NCBI GenBank assembly: GCA_937981765.1
Contig: CALJOM010000011.1
Coordinates: 1-64,000 of the forward strand
Origin: an uncultured Bacteroidales bacterium
GTDB lineage: Bacteria > Bacteroidota > Bacteroidia > Bacteroidales > Salinivirgaceae
Reading direction: 5' to 3'
Length of the DNA: 64,000 nucleotides
Below the pieces are notes generated by a model that worked only from the letters and a program-made list of their open reading frames with translations, searched no databases and was not told the DNA's origin. A program made the translations under genes and the position numbers. Below are positions 8,196 through 32,624 of the stretch, piece after piece (positions within the stretch are counted from its first letter, which is position 1; the number at the start of each line of letters is the position of its first letter).

Positions 8196-10820
8196 TTACA
8201 GATTCAGAAGGGCGTTAAAAATCAACCTGAACGTTGCAGGGGTTTGTCCGCGGTAGTGTGGACTGAACCCGTAAAACACAAACTGTCCGCGGTTTTTCTT
8301 TAACCAAACCATAATAGCTTTATCCTCAAGTAGTTTTCCGTTTTTAAGATAACCACTAACGGCTTTGTCGGTCTCTGGGAAAGATAGTAAAACCCGGCGG
8401 TCGGTGTCGAATTGAGGAATGGTTGTTTCAAAAAGAGCATAGTCGTCGAGGAAAACCGGAAACGATCGAGGAAAACCGTAGGTTAGCGGATGATTTTCAA
8501 CAGCATTCACCATTAGGTGGGTACCACTGATTTCAAGGCCTTGTTTGGTTAGATTTTCTGTAACGTTAACTATGGGGAGTTTGAACTCTTCTATGTTGTC
8601 CTTGTCCACTTCTAATTCCAATATTCCAGTAAACAGGTTTACCGATTTCCCCCAGGTAAGAACGGTACCACCATTATCTACAAATTTTAGAACTTTCGAA
8701 AGGCCCTTTTTACCCATCCCTTTGGCATATTGAGGTTCGAGGTTAACCGGGAAATAGTCGTCTTCGTGTTTTCGTTTGCCCGATAGTATGAGGTCGGCTT
8801 CCTGATTCGGGAAAATCAAAATCTGAAAATTTTGCTGAAGGTTGATATATGCAAGCTCTGATGGGCGAATAATTGTATACGGAACAGAATAGCTGTCGAA
8901 CAAAAATCGTGTCCATCCGGCATCCATATCGTGGAAATACGATTCAACGAGGCCAATTCGGGGCAACTTTAATTCCGCAAGAATATTGGAGGGTATTTGT
9001 TGTATAAACTGTGGTGGATCAGCTACATTTAATCCTTTCACAAGGCTCTCACCCGACTTTCGTAGTACAAAACTGCCGGCTGCATAGGTTATGCCCCCGT
9101 AGGTGTAGTCTGACGTAACCCGAAATACCTTTTCACCTTTGGATAGTGCAGAAAATACTATTTTATAGCTTTCGTTGTTGGCTGGCGGGAAAATTAGGAA
9201 ATCACCCTGCGATTGGGCTGCTTGGGGTAATGTAATACCGGTGATCGAAACCAACGATTTCTCAAGTTCGGGAGATTTGGTGTTTATTTCAAATGCTTCA
9301 AGGCCAAAATTCAGCGGGAACGACCAGCTAGTGATATCGTACGGTTTAATTATTTCGCCGTTAGGGGTGTAGTGTCGTTCGGGATAATGTTGATTTTCCA
9401 TAACTTCCTTAATGAATGCACGGAAAGGATGGGCAAGTGAAATTACCACGTCGCCGGAATGAAACACTCGCCGGTCGATAACTACATCGGAGGCTAATTG
9501 CGAAACGCGAATTCCATGTTCCTGCATCAGAGCAACAAAATCGCGAAGGCCGCTTTTATTTATGGTTGCAATGGGAAGAATATAGTAGTAGGGCGGGGTG
9601 TTTTTACCTTTTTGGTATTCTTTCTGGCAGAGGTCGTTCCGGAATTTAAGAATTGCGTTTTTATGCAACGAAGCTGTTTTTAGCATGGAGAAAGTAGAGC
9701 TGATTTCATAGCTGACAATATCTCCCAAACGCCACCATCCGCCTTCCCATGGAGCGATAAAGTTAACTCCCTTTTTGTATTCCGAAAGTCCTTTTCCCAA
9801 AACTTTTAGTTCGATTTTTTCGATATAAATCGGGGTGGCTGTTTTTACTGAGGCAGCTTCGGTGAGCAGGCTGATAACATTTTTCCACAGGCATGTTTCC
9901 GTGGAGCCCGGCCAATAGTTGTCGAAAACATACCGTTGAGCAATTCCTGTCAGACCGTCGGTGATCATATCGTTCAGCATGTTCGACCCAAACAAACCCA
10001 CCCAGCTCCACATGGTTTCGTCAATGTTCATGGCAATGGGGTCGTGGTTTGGTTGGACGAAATAGCGCGGGCCGTTGGCACCCATCTGATGCTTTTCCAC
10101 CATCACTTGCGGAAACCATTCGCGCGATGTTAACGCCGATACGGCTCGGTTTTCGGATTGGGTAAGCATCAAAAAATCGCGGTTTATATTGTGCCCTACA
10201 TATTTGTGATAAACTCCCGGAAAATTGGTCCCTTCGTATTTTGTGCCCACTTTACTGAGGTAGTGTTTGTTCAGCATATCCATGCCGTCGGGGTTGTGGC
10301 AGGGAATCATCATATAAACCACATTGTCCAGAATGGCGAGGGTATCGGCTCCGTTAGCGGCTACAAGCCGATAGGCAATGTTAGGAGAGGCTTGGCTGGG
10401 CCCCACTTCGTTGGAGTGCATCGATAAAGCACCCAGGACAAAAACCTTTCCTTCGGATGTTAATTTTTCTTTTTCGTCAGGAGTTAATGAATGGTTGAGC
10501 GCCAATTGACGGTTAATTTCTTTTAAACGTTCAAGATTTGCCAGATTTTTTTCCGACGAAATGCACACCATATACAACGGTTTGCCCATTGCAGTTTGCC
10601 CGATAATAAAAGTTTTCAGCCGGTTTGTTTCGGCCTCTAGTTTTTTGAAATAGGCAATCAATGGGTCGTAAAACACTAATTTTCGGTCGTCTCCCGGATT
10701 GAATCCAAAATGCTCGCGAGGTGTGGTTACTTTTTGAGCCTGGGCAGACATTATGGCAACGCCAAACAATAGTGTGAAAATCTGGCAGTAGCCGCGGGTG
10801 TAAACGAAAAAACGGTTCAT
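8196..10820 (-). CDS. M14 family zinc carboxypeptidase, exported
   Basis: An 874-residue protein of the large M14 metallocarboxypeptidase type common in Bacteroidota. A signal peptide (residues 1-29, ending SAQAQ) targets it to the periplasm or beyond. The zinc-binding HxxE lies in MHSNEVGP at about residue 135. A downstream IPCHNPDGMDML matches the M14 substrate-binding region, and HQMGANGPRYFV follows. LLTEAAS at about residue 318 is a candidate for the catalytic Glu. The C-terminal half resembles the glutamine-amidotransferase-like region seen in these long members. It cleaves C-terminal residues or amides from peptides; the substrate is not predictable. It is a single gene convergent with the upstream T9SS cargo gene, with a TAnnTTTG promoter at 10862-10869. 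Confidence 0.88.
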   Translation of the reverse strand: MNRFFVYTRGYCQIFTLLFGVAIMSAQAQKVTTPREHFGFNPGDDRKLVFYDPLIAYFKKLEAETNRLKTFIIGQTAMGKPLYMVCISSEKNLANLERLKEINRQLALNHSLTPDEKEKLTSEGKVFVLGALSMHSNEVGPSQASPNIAYRLVAANGADTLAILDNVVYMMIPCHNPDGMDMLNKHYLSKVGTKYEGTNFPGVYHKYVGHNINRDFLMLTQSENRAVSALTSREWFPQVMVEKHQMGANGPRYFVQPNHDPIAMNIDETMWSWVGLFGSNMLNDMITDGLTGIAQRYVFDNYWPGSTETCLWKNVISLLTEAASVKTATPIYIEKIELKVLGKGLSEYKKGVNFIAPWEGGWWRLGDIVSYEISSTFSMLKTASLHKNAILKFRNDLCQKEYQKGKNTPPYYYILPIATINKSGLRDFVALMQEHGIRVSQLASDVVIDRRVFHSGDVVISLAHPFRAFIKEVMENQHYPERHYTPNGEIIKPYDITSWSFPLNFGLEAFEINTKSPELEKSLVSITGITLPQAAQSQGDFLIFPPANNESYKIVFSALSKGEKVFRVTSDYTYGGITYAAGSFVLRKSGESLVKGLNVADPPQFIQQIPSNILAELKLPRIGLVESYFHDMDAGWTRFLFDSYSVPYTIIRPSELAYINLQQNFQILIFPNQEADLILSGKRKHEDDYFPVNLEPQYAKGMGKKGLSKVLKFVDNGGTVLTWGKSVNLFTGILELEVDKDNIEEFKLPIVNVTENLTKQGLEISGTHLMVNAVENHPLTYGFPRSFPVFLDDYALFETTIPQFDTDRRVLLSFPETDKAVSGYLKNGKLLEDKAIMVWLKKNRGQFVFYGFSPHYRGQTPATFRLIFNALLNL

Positions 10821-14100: not shown

Positions 14101-16212
14101 CTATTGTGTTATTCCCAGAATTTTAAACATAAAGGCGTATTCAAACGCTACGTCGCGAAGGGGTTTAAATCGTCCGGAGGCTCCTCCGTGGCCTGCATCC
14201 ATGTCGATTTTGAAGAGTAACAGATTGTTATCGGTTTTCATTTCGCGGAGTTTAGCTACCCATTTGGCGGGTTCCCAGTATTGCACTTGTGAATCGTGGT
14301 AGCCAGTGGTTACCAGCATGTTGGGGTAGCTTTGCTTTTTAACCTGATCGTAGGGTGAATACGACTTCATGTAGAAATAATATTCTTTGTTGTTTGGATT
14401 GCCCCATTCGTCGTATTCGGAGGTGGTGAGAGGTATGGTTTCGTCGAACATGGTGGTTACAACATCTACAAACGGCACCTGAGCAATTATGCCACGGAAA
14501 AGATCTGGGCGCATGTTGGCTACTGCCCCAACTAGCAAACCCCCGGCACTACCGCCCTGAGCATACAAGAGGTTGGTATTTGTGTATTTTTCTTGTATCA
14601 GAAATTCGGCGCAAGCAATAAAATCAGTAAACGTGTTCATTTTTTTCAACAGTTTACCATCTTCGTACCAGTATCTTCCCATTTCCTGCCCACCCCGGAT
14701 GTGTGCCATGGCAAAAACAAAACCACGATCAAGAAGGCTTATGCGTGATACGCTGAAATAAGGGTTAAGTGAATAACCATACGAACCATAGCCATAAAGG
14801 AGAGCCGGATTGTTGCCGTTGCGCTCCAACCCTTTGCGATAAACTATGGATAACGGGATTTTAGTTCCGTCAGTGGCGATTGCCCATAGGCGCTTGGTTT
14901 CGTAATTCTGTGGATCGTATCCTCCTAGAACTTCGGTTTGTTTGAGTAGTATTTTTTCACGGGTATCGAGGTTGTATTCATAGGTGGTGAAGGGAGTAGT
15001 GAGTGAGGTATAGGTGAAACGGAAAAGATTGGTATTGAATTCAGGATTGTATGAACTAAGAAGGGCGTAAACTTCTTCGTCAAAGGCCATAAAATGTTCT
15101 TTTCCGGAAGATAGGTCTATTATGCGTATTTGTTCAAGAGCATTGGTGCGCTCTTCGATCACAAGGTGGTTTTTAAACAGGTTGAATCCTTCGAGCAAAA
15201 CGTCGGAGCGGTGCGGGATAACTTCGGCCCAAAATTTTTTCTCGGTTTTACCAACCGGGGTTCTCATCAGGCGGAAGTTTTGTGCCTGAAGGTTGGTTAA
15301 CACATAGAAGTGGGTTGAGTGATGATCGATTGAATATTCCAGACCTCGTTCCCGTGGTTGAAAAATTTTAAACTCACCGTTCGGTGTATTAGCATCGAGG
15401 TATCGATATTCGTTGGAGAGTGTGCTGTTGCTGTTAATGAAAATATAGGCTTTCGACCTAGATTTAGACACGCTTACGCTGAATGTTTCATCGGGTTCTT
15501 CGTAAACAAGGATGTCTTTATTGGAAGCTGGGTCGTTGATATTGTGGCGAAGAATTTTGTTGGAGCGGAGGGTGATGGTGTCTTTCATGGTGTAGAATAC
15601 CGTCAGATTATCGTTTGCCCAAATTGCAGCTCCGGTGGTGTTATCGATTTTTGTGTTAAGCAGTTGCCCGGTTTCGAGGTTTTTAAAAAATATTGCATAG
15701 CGTCGGCGGCTTACAGTGTCAACCCCATAGGCAAGAATTTTATTGTTGGGTGAAACGGATATCCCGGCAACATGGTAGTAGGGATGTTTTTTAGCCATGG
15801 AGTTTACATCAAGAAGTATCTCCTCAGGTTCCTGCATGGAGTTTTTTCTGCGGCAATAGATTGGGTATTCATTTCCGGCTTCGTAACGAGTGTAATAGTA
15901 GTATCCGTTTTCGAAATAGGGAACCGATTCGTCTTGTTCTTTTATTCTGCCTTTTATTTCCTCAAAGAGTTTTTTCTGAAGGGGTTCGGTATCCTTCATG
16001 ACGTATGCCGTGTAATTGTTTTCGGCTTTGAGGTAATTAAGCACATCGGGGTGATTGCGTTGATTCATCCAGAAGTAGTTGTCAATTCGTGTGTCTTCAT
16101 GGATGGTCAATTCCTGGGGTATTTTTTTTGCCACAGGCGGGGTTGGTGATTTTTGACAACCGGCAAAAACAAGCACTAAAGAGAGCACCAATAGTTTTAA
16201 TCCGTTTTTCAT
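14101..16212 (-). CDS. S9A prolyl oligopeptidase family protease (oligopeptidase B type), lipoprotein
   Basis: A 703-residue serine peptidase that cleaves oligopeptides. A lipoprotein signal ends at VLVFAGC, so it is probably anchored in the envelope. An N-terminal seven-bladed propeller (about residues 75-430) filters substrates by size. The alpha/beta-hydrolase domain has the nucleophile in GGSAGGLL (Ser about 556), the Asp in YHDSQVQYWEP (about 639) and the His in DAGHGG (about 674). MAHIRGGQEMGRYWYEDGK upstream of the Ser is typical of oligopeptidase B, which prefers Arg/Lys at P1. It follows the MvaD-like gene by 27 bases and is probably co-transcribed. Confidence 0.9.
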   Translation of the reverse strand: MKNGLKLLVLSLVLVFAGCQKSPTPPVAKKIPQELTIHEDTRIDNYFWMNQRNHPDVLNYLKAENNYTAYVMKDTEPLQKKLFEEIKGRIKEQDESVPYFENGYYYYTRYEAGNEYPIYCRRKNSMQEPEEILLDVNSMAKKHPYYHVAGISVSPNNKILAYGVDTVSRRRYAIFFKNLETGQLLNTKIDNTTGAAIWANDNLTVFYTMKDTITLRSNKILRHNINDPASNKDILVYEEPDETFSVSVSKSRSKAYIFINSNSTLSNEYRYLDANTPNGEFKIFQPRERGLEYSIDHHSTHFYVLTNLQAQNFRLMRTPVGKTEKKFWAEVIPHRSDVLLEGFNLFKNHLVIEERTNALEQIRIIDLSSGKEHFMAFDEEVYALLSSYNPEFNTNLFRFTYTSLTTPFTTYEYNLDTREKILLKQTEVLGGYDPQNYETKRLWAIATDGTKIPLSIVYRKGLERNGNNPALLYGYGSYGYSLNPYFSVSRISLLDRGFVFAMAHIRGGQEMGRYWYEDGKLLKKMNTFTDFIACAEFLIQEKYTNTNLLYAQGGSAGGLLVGAVANMRPDLFRGIIAQVPFVDVVTTMFDETIPLTTSEYDEWGNPNNKEYYFYMKSYSPYDQVKKQSYPNMLVTTGYHDSQVQYWEPAKWVAKLREMKTDNNLLLFKIDMDAGHGGASGRFKPLRDVAFEYAFMFKILGITQ

Positions 16213-20132: not shown

Positions 20133-22058
20133 CTATTGCGAAACTATTCGTATAACGGTTGTTTTGCCAAATTCTTCATAAATTTTCAGCAGGTAAATAC
20201 CTTGGGGAACCGTAATTTCCACTTTGTGTTGGTTGGGTTGCATTTGAAAAATTAATTTCCCTGATAACGAATATAGTAAAATTTCGCGAAGTATTTTTTC
20301 GGACGAGAGTATTATTTTTTGATGCGAAGTAGGATTGGGATGTACTTTCACAGATTGGGAATTTAGCTCTTCAATAGAAACAAGTTGCCCTTGGGTAACA
20401 CTGTTGTATCTGGTGATAAGATGATAATCTGGATCGAACATTACGGAAGTGGGGACAAATTGGGTTTGGATTAAAAAGAGCTGGTTATTGTGGATGTTGT
20501 GGAGCCAGACAGTAGTGTCGCTGTTGGGGCGACTGATTTTAATGGGAATTTTCATTTCGAAAAAAGATACCGAGGTGTGCGACTGGGTTTGGTTAACTCG
20601 AAGGTAAACATAGGGGGCAGCGTATTGCCAAACAATGTTATAGGAGGGATATCCTTGATTATAAATCCAGTCGTTAAAAAAATCCACCAGGTTGGTGTCG
20701 GCGGCTTGTTCAAAATGTGCTTTCAATTGCGGGGTTCGGGCAAAGTTATTGATAAGATTTGGGTTGGTTAAATAATTTTTAATGGCTGCAAAAAAAACAC
20801 TGTCGCCAATTTGTTTTCGCAACATGTGAAGAACCATGGCTCCTTTATCGTAAACTAGACGGCTGTTGAATATTGTGTTTATGGAGGTGGTGTCGTAAAC
20901 GTATACCGAGCCGTCGGGAGCGGAGGTGATGTTGCTTATTCGTGTCATACGCCAGCTCTTGAATTGGGCCGGATAGAAGGTTTCGGTGTATAACCCTTCA
21001 CAGTATCTGGCAAAACTTTCATTGAGCCAAATATCCGACCAGCTACCACAGGTAATGTAATTTCCAAACCATTGGTGCGATAGTTCGTGCACAACTAGCA
21101 TTTCACCCAAATTGTACATAAAACTCATGGTTTGATGTTCCATTCCACCGCCCCAACCAAATTGGGCATGACCATATTTTTCGTTTCGGAAGGGATAGGG
21201 GATAAATTGCTGGCTAAAAAATACCATAGCATTATTGACATTAGTGCCGTTGGATTGCCATTCGTTTTGAGATTCCGGATAACAATAATCAACAATTAAA
21301 ACGGTTTCGCCCGTATGCAAGGTAACGGTTCGGGTTAGTTCAACATAATTGGTTACGGCAATGGCCACTAGATAAACGGCTATCGGGTGGCGGTGTTTCC
21401 AATGATAGGTAACTTGGTTGGCGTCGTAGGTAACCCCGTGTAAAATACCATTAGATGCGGCTTTATTTCCGGGTGTGGTGCGTATAATTATGTCGATACT
21501 ATCGGCTTTGTCGGTGAGATTGTTTTTGCAAGGCCACCAAGTGTAGGCTCCATAGGGTTCGCTTAAGGTCCAGATAATTCCGGCACCATTATGAGTGGTT
21601 TGTGCCCATGCCCCAAAACCTTGAGTTACCGGTGTTCCACTGTAGCGGATTTCCAGTGTTCCTAAGGTTGGGGGGGATAAGGTAGTTCCTACATTTACTG
21701 TAACCACATGATTCAGGCGTGTAAATGTTACGGGTTGATCATTCCAACGGATTTCTGAAATGACCATATTATCTCGCAGGTCAAACGTTAGAAACGATGT
21801 GGTGTTGGTGATTTGTATCCCTATGAAAACTGTCCCCGAAATGGCATTTACATTAGGATTTAGGGTCAAATCAAGAACATAGTGTTTTACATCGTACATG
21901 TTACCCGATATCGACAGCGGGGTTTGTAAAAACTTTTCAAGCCAGCGTGTCTTAGATTCTGTTTCGTCAACCTGCGAAATGGGTTGCGCTATCGAGAAAA
22001 AACAGCCAATTGTGAATTTCAATACCAAGGCAATAAAAAAAATATTCTGAGATTTCAT
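20133..22058 (-). CDS. M1 family aminopeptidase with T9SS sorting domain
   Basis: A 641-residue secreted zinc aminopeptidase. The signal peptide covers about residues 1-25. The N-terminal beta domain is followed by GGGMEHQTMSFM (the GxMEN-like substrate motif). The zinc site HELSHQWFGN (about residues 323-332) has the third ligand Glu in WLNESFARYCE. After the catalytic domain the last 75 residues form a type A sorting domain (VKVHPNPTSHQ, VPQGIYLLKI), so the enzyme is exported by the T9SS and placed on the surface or released. The C-terminal helical domain of cytosolic M1 enzymes is absent, as usual for this short secreted type. It is the first gene of a probable pair with glgB. Confidence 0.92.
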   Translation of the reverse strand: MKSQNIFFIALVLKFTIGCFFSIAQPISQVDETESKTRWLEKFLQTPLSISGNMYDVKHYVLDLTLNPNVNAISGTVFIGIQITNTTSFLTFDLRDNMVISEIRWNDQPVTFTRLNHVVTVNVGTTLSPPTLGTLEIRYSGTPVTQGFGAWAQTTHNGAGIIWTLSEPYGAYTWWPCKNNLTDKADSIDIIIRTTPGNKAASNGILHGVTYDANQVTYHWKHRHPIAVYLVAIAVTNYVELTRTVTLHTGETVLIVDYCYPESQNEWQSNGTNVNNAMVFFSQQFIPYPFRNEKYGHAQFGWGGGMEHQTMSFMYNLGEMLVVHELSHQWFGNYITCGSWSDIWLNESFARYCEGLYTETFYPAQFKSWRMTRISNITSAPDGSVYVYDTTSINTIFNSRLVYDKGAMVLHMLRKQIGDSVFFAAIKNYLTNPNLINNFARTPQLKAHFEQAADTNLVDFFNDWIYNQGYPSYNIVWQYAAPYVYLRVNQTQSHTSVSFFEMKIPIKISRPNSDTTVWLHNIHNNQLFLIQTQFVPTSVMFDPDYHLITRYNSVTQGQLVSIEELNSQSVKVHPNPTSHQKIILSSEKILREILLYSLSGKLIFQMQPNQHKVEITVPQGIYLLKIYEEFGKTTVIRIVSQ

Positions 22059-27903: not shown

Positions 27904-28568
27904 TTAATCTTCGCTTCGATATCGGATCATAATTTCCTTAAACAGTTCGGCGGTGGTTGGAGGAGTGTAGGAAATTGCGTTGGCTCCTGCTTCTATTGCC
28001 GATTGAATGGTTTCTACGGTTTTGCCGCCCGTGGCAATTACCGCAATTTCGGGGTCGATGTCGCGGATTTTCTTAATAATGTTGTTGGTTTTATCGGCTC
28101 CCGAAACATTCAGAATGTCAACTCCCGCCAGAATTCTTCCCCGGATATCTTCGGTTTCGGATACCACGGTGATTACTATCGGAATGTCGATTTTTTCCTT
28201 CAGGCGTTTAATCAAATCGTTGGGTGTAGGTTTGTTTAAAACTACGCCAAGCGCGCCTGGAATTCGGCATCAACAGCCAGCGAAATGGCTCTCTCGCCGG
28301 TGGTGATTCCGCCCCCAACACCGCAAAAAATGGGTTTATCGGCTGCCAGAATCAAGGCATGAGAAATCATAGGTTGTGAAGTAAACGGATAAACGGCAAT
28401 AATGGCATCGGCATTAGTGTTGCGGATAATAGCAACGTCGGTACTGAATAGAAACGATTTTAAAAGTCTTCCAAAAACACGAATTCCATTGCAGGTGTTA
28501 ATTATTTCTGGAATCTCTACGATATTTTTACGTAACCGGTCGATGAAGTTGGGAGGTGTTTTAATGGC
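27904..28568 (-). pseudogene. TIM-barrel 'hydrolase' family gene, frameshifted and without start codon
   Basis: Joined, the frames encode a ribulose-phosphate-binding-barrel-like protein that databases usually call only 'hydrolase'. The 5' part reads FSTDVAIIRNTNADAIIAVYPF and KPIFCGVGGGITTGERAISLAVDAEF. The 3' part (from 28215) reads DIPIVITVVSETEDIRGRILAG, IAVIATGGKTVETIQSAIEAGA and YTPPTTAELFKEIM. A G is missing near 28256-28257, so ...DAEFQ runs to a TAG instead of continuing GALGVVLNKPTPNDL. At the 5' end the frame is closed by TGA at 28569-28571 with no ATG, GTG or TTG in between. Only the 103-residue 3' part could be translated as it stands. Confidence 0.75.
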
Positions 28569-28768
28569 TCAACCCTTTTTTGATTTATGACAGTAGAAAA
28601 ATAACTCTAATCATTAAAAAATATTGCTTTTGCTGCGAGTTTTTTGGATACACAGGCATGAGTCATCCTATTTATACAGGACCTTCTTCGCATAGGTTTA
28701 CTTAAAATGGGAATTCATCAACCAGATCCCAAAAATTTGAAGTGGATACAAAAATAAAAGCGCTAAAA
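28569..28768. other. Intergenic, nothing recognised
   Basis: A/T-rich sequence between the TIM-barrel pseudogene and the promoter of the candidate RNA. No ORF beyond 16 codons from an ATG and no clear hairpin. Confidence 0.3.
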
Positions 28769-28801
28769 TTTGGAAAATACAGATAGTTACCACTATATTT
28801 G
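28769..28801 (+). promoter_or_regulatory. Full Bacteroidetes promoter for the candidate RNA
   Basis: TTTG at 28769-28772 and TATATTTG at 28794-28801 are separated by 21 bases, which is the consensus TTTG-N19..21-TAnnTTTG. It is one of the two best promoters in the window, yet no coding sequence follows before the terminator at 28878. Confidence 0.7.
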
Positions 28802-28802
28802 C

Positions 28803-28909
28803 AATGCTGTCGGTATAGAGCCGCAAGGGGACTGCAGTTCTGGTTAAAGACAGTTAGTCAGCATTTTAAGGTTGTTGGGCTGTTTCGGGTCACCGGAACA
28901 GCCTTTTTT
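28803..28909 (+). ncRNA. Candidate structured small RNA, about 100 nt
   Basis: This segment lies between a full promoter and a strong terminator and has no ORF. It can fold into a branched structure. AATGCTG (28803-28809) pairs with CAGCATT (28859-28865) as a closing stem. CGG (28811-28813) pairs with CCG (28821-28823), and GACT/AGTC plus CTG/CAG pairs lie in the middle. The 3' end is the terminator hairpin. The start site would be at about 28805-28809. No known family was recognised: it lacks the SRP RNA internal loop, and it is too short for 6S. It could instead be a leader with a premature terminator, but the following gene has its own promoter at 28945. Confidence 0.5.
28878..28909 (+). 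terminator. Terminator of the candidate RNA
   Basis: A nine-pair stem (GGCTGTTTC 28878-28886 with GGAACAGCC 28895-28903, one T-G wobble) followed by six T (28904-28909). Confidence 0.75.
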
Positions 28910-28944
28910 GTTGGAGCTGTTGTTAACTTACAATGTTAATTTTT

Positions 28945-28952
28945 TATATTTG
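28945..28952 (+). promoter_or_regulatory. Bacteroidetes -7 box of the S46 peptidase gene
   Basis: TATATTTG, an exact TAnnTTTG, 37 bases before ATG 28990. A TTG at 28920-28922 could be the -33 element at a spacing of 22. Confidence 0.55.
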
Positions 28953-31232: not shown

Positions 31233-32624
31233 ATGTTCAGCGCAGAAGTGTATCAAAACCGCCGCAATGCTCTTAAAGAAAAAGTTAGCAGTGGAATAGG
31301 GCTTTTTCTTGGCAATGCCGACGCTTCTATGAACTATCCTGCAAACACCTACCACTTTCGTCAGGATAGCAATTTTCTCTATTTTTTCGGTCTCGATTTC
31401 CCCGATTTAGCTGCAATAATTGATTTCGAATCCGGTGAAGAAATTATTTTTGGCGACGATCTCACCATCGACGATATTATATGGACAGGTAAGCAGCCAT
31501 CTATCCACGATAGAGCTTTACTAGTGGGGGTAAAAGAAACCCGGCCTTTTTCGAAGCTGCAAGAATATTTGTCACAAGCCTTTCGCCATGGACGTAGGAT
31601 TCACTTCACACCACCCTACCGCGGCGAGAAGAAAATGTTGCTTGAACAATTGCTTGGAATACGCGCTGCCATTGTGCGCGATTATGCCTCTACCGAACTT
31701 ATCAAAGCAATAATTGCACTGCGCAGTATAAAAGAACCCTGTGAAATTGAAGAGCTTGAGAGAGCTGCATCAGTTGGCTATCAGATGCACGTTACGGCTA
31801 TGCGCATGGCCAAACCCGGCCGATTTGAACAAACCCTGGCCGGAATTATCGAAGGAATATCGCTCTCCAACGGTGGAATGGTATCGTTTCCCGTAATCCT
31901 CTCGCAGAACGGGCAAATCCTCCACAACCACGACCATAGCCAAATTCTTCAAGCAGGCCGCCTCATGCTTTGCGATGCCGGAGCCGAAACCCCGCTACAT
32001 TATGCTTCCGACCACACACGTACTATCCCCATTGGAGGTAAATTCTCGCAACGCCAGAAAGAGATTTACGAAATTGTTCTCAATGCCAATAACACGGCGA
32101 TGAATGCCGTTAAACCGGGTGTTACTTATCAGCAGGTGCACCTGATTGCTTGCAAGGTAATTGCGGAGGGATTAGTGCAATTGGGGTTAATGAAAGGAAA
32201 CCCCGACGAGATTGTCAACGCCGGCGCTCACGCTATGTTTTTCCCCCATGGCCTGGGCCACATGATTGGGCTCGACGTTCACGATATGGAAGATCTGGGG
32301 CAAAACCTAGTGGGTTACGACGACGAAACCAAGCCAATCAGCCAGTTTGGCACGGCCTACCTCCGTATGGGCCGCAAACTGCAACCCGGATTCTGCATAA
32401 CCAACGAGCCGGGAATATATTTTATCCCCGATTTAATCGATCTTTGGAAATCGGAAAACAAGCACGCTGAGTTTATAAACTATGCTGAGGTTGATAAATA
32501 TTGCGATTTTGGCGGAATACGTCTGGAAGATATGCTTTTAGTGACCGAAACCGGATGTAACATTATCGGAACCCGTCCTCCGATAACCGTTGCAGAAGTT
32601 GAAGCCATTGCTGCAACCGAATAA
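31233..32624 (+). CDS. pepP: Xaa-Pro aminopeptidase (aminopeptidase P), M24B family
   Basis: A 463-residue cytosolic dimetal peptidase that removes an N-terminal residue preceding proline. The N-terminal creatinase-like domain covers about residues 1-165. The pita-bread catalytic domain shows metal ligands in LCDAGAE and SDHTRTIP (two Asp), HGLGHMIGLDVHD (His), NEPGIYF (Glu) and GGIRLEDMLLV (Glu). No signal peptide. It complements the S46 dipeptidyl-peptidase next door in breaking down proline-containing peptides. Confidence 0.95.
   Translation: MFSAEVYQNRRNALKEKVSSGIGLFLGNADASMNYPANTYHFRQDSNFLYFFGLDFPDLAAIIDFESGEEIIFGDDLTIDDIIWTGKQPSIHDRALLVGVKETRPFSKLQEYLSQAFRHGRRIHFTPPYRGEKKMLLEQLLGIRAAIVRDYASTELIKAIIALRSIKEPCEIEELERAASVGYQMHVTAMRMAKPGRFEQTLAGIIEGISLSNGGMVSFPVILSQNGQILHNHDHSQILQAGRLMLCDAGAETPLHYASDHTRTIPIGGKFSQRQKEIYEIVLNANNTAMNAVKPGVTYQQVHLIACKVIAEGLVQLGLMKGNPDEIVNAGAHAMFFPHGLGHMIGLDVHDMEDLGQNLVGYDDETKPISQFGTAYLRMGRKLQPGFCITNEPGIYFIPDLIDLWKSENKHAEFINYAEVDKYCDFGGIRLEDMLLVTETGCNIIGTRPPITVAEVEAIAATE

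Follow-up and report, generated by a model that had tools for sequence, protein, structure and literature searches.

Positions 28769-28909 of the window (the whole 64,000-nt stretch of DNA analysed, from the Salinivirgaceae genome G000, to which all window coordinates refer) probably carry a gene for a small RNA of about 105 nt, one that either originated at the 3' end of a protease mRNA or is shared with it, and that has here outlived the mRNA. Judging from the sequence, a functional RNA from about 28805 to 28909 would be transcribed from a Bacteroidetes-type promoter and end at an intrinsic terminator. Within this RNA the conserved portion would be a single-stranded linker together with the terminator, preceded by a hairpin that drifts in sequence and keeps its shape. 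In G001, a Salinivirgaceae metagenome-assembled genome (MAG) of the same genus, the same unit would cover the final ~20 codons of a C25-type protease gene as well as its 3' UTR, an arrangement known from 3'-end-derived small RNAs whose promoter lies inside the coding region; in G000 the coding sequence appears to have decayed, leaving the RNA unit. The first-pass annotation had proposed a small-RNA gene at this site, and that proposal is backed by 96% identity of the 3' 54 bases, by the kept promoter boxes and by the like folds of the two copies, which make it probable. The features are:

28738-28857, plus strand: C-terminal codons, now decayed, of a secreted C25-type protease (EVDTKIKALKFGKYR*LPLYLQCCRYR / frameshift / RKGTAVLVKDS*), placed by anchored DNA and frameshift protein alignments
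28769-28772, plus strand: -33 box TTTG, seen in the sequence, within AAAATTTGG, which is identical in G001 and there codes for KFG of the C25 protease
28794-28801, plus strand: -7 box TATATTTG, seen in the sequence, 8/8 identical in G001 and there coding for VYL
28805-28809, plus strand: start of transcription as expected from the -7 box and the Bacteroides promoter architecture (PMC7366714)
28806-28854, plus strand: 5' hairpin with outer stem 28806-28811/28849-28854 and inner stem 28816-28821/28837-28842
28856-28877, plus strand: conserved linker AGTCAGCATTTTAAGGTTGTTG, candidate pairing region, 22/22 identical in G001
28878-28909, plus strand: intrinsic terminator with an 11-bp stem, a 4-nt loop and six T
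28945-28952, plus strand: -7 box belonging to the next gene, the S46 peptidase, a separate unit, seen in the sequence

The sole counterpart of the element lies at 10750-10803 of G001 contig C176, where 52 of 54 bases (96%) are identical to window 28856-28909, including a run of 34 consecutive bases. One of the two differences is a loop base and the other turns a G-U into an A-U pair, or the reverse, in the terminator stem. All comparisons of the element use these two sequences, the window copy and the G001 copy. When 838 kb of G000 was compared with 684 kb of G001, the 54-bp element was the most conserved stretch of at least 40 bp, above tRNA genes; four matches of that length reached 86% identity, namely the element (96%), tRNA genes (93% and 88%) and a 40-bp match (87.5%). 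The best-conserved long coding DNA reached 78% in a 20-kb comparison, and comparable identity is not seen at other terminators of the two genomes. No further counterpart was found in the nearest 99 genomes, in 393 genomes of the order, among 84,980 species scanned for exact 21-mers or in IMG/VR. Weak BLAST matches in G021, G028 and G098 fall within unrelated genes or next to them and were set aside as chance; apart from the two copies, everything that covariance model R2 picked up was an ordinary terminator. The 3' element is also missing from the protease gene end of G002, a third genome of the genus, though the boxes occur in the G002 coding frame. Among the tRNA genes, tRNA-Arg(cct) and ~38 bp upstream of it are conserved at 88% (L116 1890-2000 and L043 6025-6137), in differing gene neighbourhoods.

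Strict conservation and patchy distribution also fit a recent exchange, in which a short piece of DNA (3' UTR plus terminator) passed or was inserted between lineages and the near-identity reflects recency, not function. The very high identity, the absence from G002 and from every other genome searched, and the different gene neighbourhoods of the G000 and G001 loci are as this explanation would have them. We nevertheless hold it to be quite improbable: the element is single copy in both G000 and G001, a mobile-element or phage origin was rejected after plasmids, phages and IMG/VR gave no match, and the upstream 118 bp are colinear, homologous and strongly diverged, which is not expected from recent transfer of the whole unit.

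That diverged sequence points to the history of the locus. Window 28738-28857 is most likely the decayed end of a C25-type protease gene, because its alignments to G001 beat shuffled controls: the score of the anchored DNA alignment was reached by 3 of 1000 shuffles, and none of 300 shuffles did as well as the frameshift-tolerant alignment to the G001 protein C-terminus. The relic is colinear with the final codons of the G001 protease (C176; 1239 aa, intact, with a Peptidase_C25 domain), which ends EVGKIVVEKFGFVQKNGVYLLDYQFGTCKGTTVLIID*, and MAFFT aligns the two gene ends with one gap. Directly after the stop codon of this intact, secreted C25-type protease gene the G001 copy of the element begins. 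In C25 genes with a secretion-type C-terminal domain (C176 in G001; C23 in G002, an intact ortholog at 51%), the last ~35 codons align with the relic; unlike in these genes, the window frame is broken by one internal stop (in frame, 28784-28786) and one frameshift before the old stop codon at 28855-28857, and the rest of the gene is gone. Alignment of the relic to the more distant G002 C-terminus alone was not significant (59/300 shuffles), and a search of G000 for an ortholog of the G001 protease returned only partial best matches of 27-32%. The description of the unit as stand-alone therefore holds in the window but not in G001, where the element sits at the 3' end of the protease gene, and the window copy itself resembles a gene-end leftover.

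The promoter pair that had been described, TTTG and TATATTTG separated by 21 bases, is present in the sequence. Since TTTG-N18-23-TANNTTTG occurs four times in the window against 3.8 expected, the box pair alone is no evidence of a promoter. Between the window and G001, all 10 of the 10 key promoter positions and the spacing of the boxes are kept, while only 4 of 20 spacer positions agree and the decayed part outside the boxes has 44% identity; this box conservation was noticed only after alignment and had not been predicted beforehand. Both boxes coincide with relic codons, KFG and VYL, that are still in use in G001; consensus boxes are kept in both genomes, but coding constraint accounts for them in G001.

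These observations bear on the main rival, according to which the site is only a decayed C25-type C-terminus followed by an ordinary terminator, with the boxes as leftover codons and no separate RNA. The coding relic itself, the placement of both boxes on it and the chance-level frequency of the box pair all speak for such a dead gene end, as does the finding that terminators of the form GGCTGTT...AACAGCC-TTTTTT are common after genes of the order, other secreted-protein genes included. A dead gene end would not, however, be expected to keep 22 of 22 linker bases and 34 consecutive bases while neighbouring codons drop to 44%, and the other terminators of both genomes lack such identity; we regard this rival as unlikely. 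Retention of the linker cannot be explained by service to the protease mRNA, because the frame is dead and G000 has no ortholog. As a dead mRNA end has no need of a linker, we infer a function in trans: the putative RNA would most likely act through base pairing between its linker and mRNA leaders.

The predicted fold is consistent with a small-RNA gene. Region 28803-28915 folds better than all of 200 dinucleotide shuffles (z -3.9), and the part before the terminator, taken alone, has z -2.7 (matched by 3/200 shuffles) against z -2.9 for its G001 counterpart. In both copies the order is 5' hairpin, 22-nt linker, terminator. The hairpin has a similar shape in G000 and G001 though only about half of the 5' bases agree; three double changes between the copies are compensatory, and two pairs are broken. 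An alifold column-shuffle test of the hairpin gave P 0.017; a column-slide control also favours the structure, but 68 of 500 pair shuffles score equally well. The terminator of the first-pass annotation is real, with TTTTTT at 28904-28909, but stronger than the nine pairs claimed, its stem having 11-12. The proposed closing stem AATGCTG/CAGCATT can be drawn (28803-28809/28858-28864), but it lies outside the minimum-energy fold, and it was rejected as a conserved element because its 5' arm differs in G001. The statement that the stretch holds no ORF is true of ATG starts; a TTG-started frame of 46 codons does cross the stretch and the terminator, and its G001 counterpart contains stops. No tRNA was found at the element. 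The suggested Rfam search produced no covariance-model match at the gathering score in the window, and a relaxed threshold added one match there, judged to be chance.

The S46 peptidase gene that follows the element was confirmed to have its own -7 box past the terminator (again TATATTTG). An alternative raised earlier makes the element a leader with a premature terminator (an attenuator or riboswitch) governing this gene, and its position immediately upstream on the same strand would suit that role. Against it, the S46 -7 box follows the terminator, the S46 genes of G001, G002 and G003 have no such element upstream, the G001 copy lies on another contig behind a different gene, and Rfam gives no match; the leader explanation is thus unsupported and, in our judgement, very improbable. 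Conservation had been expected in relatives that keep the S46 gene. Its failure in these three genomes, which have nothing similar at that place, refutes the synteny link with S46, and a conserved tandem location was rejected, but it does not refute the RNA itself.

To our knowledge, small RNAs of Bacteroidota beyond Bacteroides are almost unmapped, and the phylum does not offer the classical Hfq-dependent setting. MicX of Vibrio cholerae is a 3'-end-derived small RNA with its promoter inside a coding sequence (review PMC9438474). The G001 locus is alike in having putative promoter boxes in the last codons of an mRNA, an RNA that would run through the 3' UTR, and a terminator shared with the mRNA. 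The window copy differs in that the coding gene is dead, with only a vestige of its end left, and the putative unit is free-standing. GibS, an intergenic Bacteroides sRNA of 145 nt with a 5' single-stranded seed (PMC7366714), offers a second comparison: like the window copy, it is intergenic and combines a promoter of its own (putative in the window copy) with hairpins, a linear stretch and a Rho-independent terminator. No search returned homology to GibS, however, and the conserved linear region of the window copy is 3', adjoining the terminator. If real, the window RNA would represent a new family, seen as part of an mRNA 3' end in one species and as an independent unit in another, and would reveal one route by which stand-alone small RNAs arise.

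Candidate pairing targets were sought with the linker. In G000 a pattern search located sites complementary to it in an M28 peptidase start region (-25 to -2), and in G001 it located such sites in the DPP IV and S46 leaders. When 598 G000 leaders were ranked by duplex, the top three places went to M28, M14 and a secreted peptidyl-arginine deiminase, the M28 start region being best at -26.8 kcal/mol, an energy that 5 of 300 shuffled seeds attain. The start codon of a SpoU-type methyltransferase gene is a predicted pairing site in both genomes (-24.4 and -17.7), within the range of chance best hits. Complementary sites were not shared by orthologs, and a prediction set beforehand, that peptidases would also head the leaders of other G001 contigs, failed, with no peptidase at the top. 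Because shuffled seeds reach the M28 energy, orthologs are without the sites and the G001 prediction failed, the predicted targets are suggestive leads only. We see some chance, tentatively a small one, of a fuller scenario in which a 3'-UTR-derived RNA outlived its decayed protease mRNA, its promoter, hairpin and pairing region remained under selection, and it now controls other secreted peptidases. The M14 carboxypeptidase gene whose start region ranks second among the 598 leaders lies in the window itself (8199-10820, minus strand).

The window is rich in peptidase genes. Loci at 20133-22058 (minus strand), 14101-16212 (minus strand) and 31233-32624 (plus strand) include an M1 peptidase carrying a type IX secretion tail, together with what look by eye like a prolyl oligopeptidase and an Xaa-Pro aminopeptidase. 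An aldolase-like gene of the KDPG-aldolase type (27904-28552, minus strand) has a single frameshift near 28262, reflecting either decay or a sequencing error. The DUF4494 genes of both genomes (L103 17593-18093 and L139 7672-8163) have a GC-rich hairpin, AAGCCCGGCAA..GTCGGGCTT, that overlaps the start or lies immediately ahead of it; the hairpin is terminator-like and is possibly an attenuator or the end of an upstream unit.
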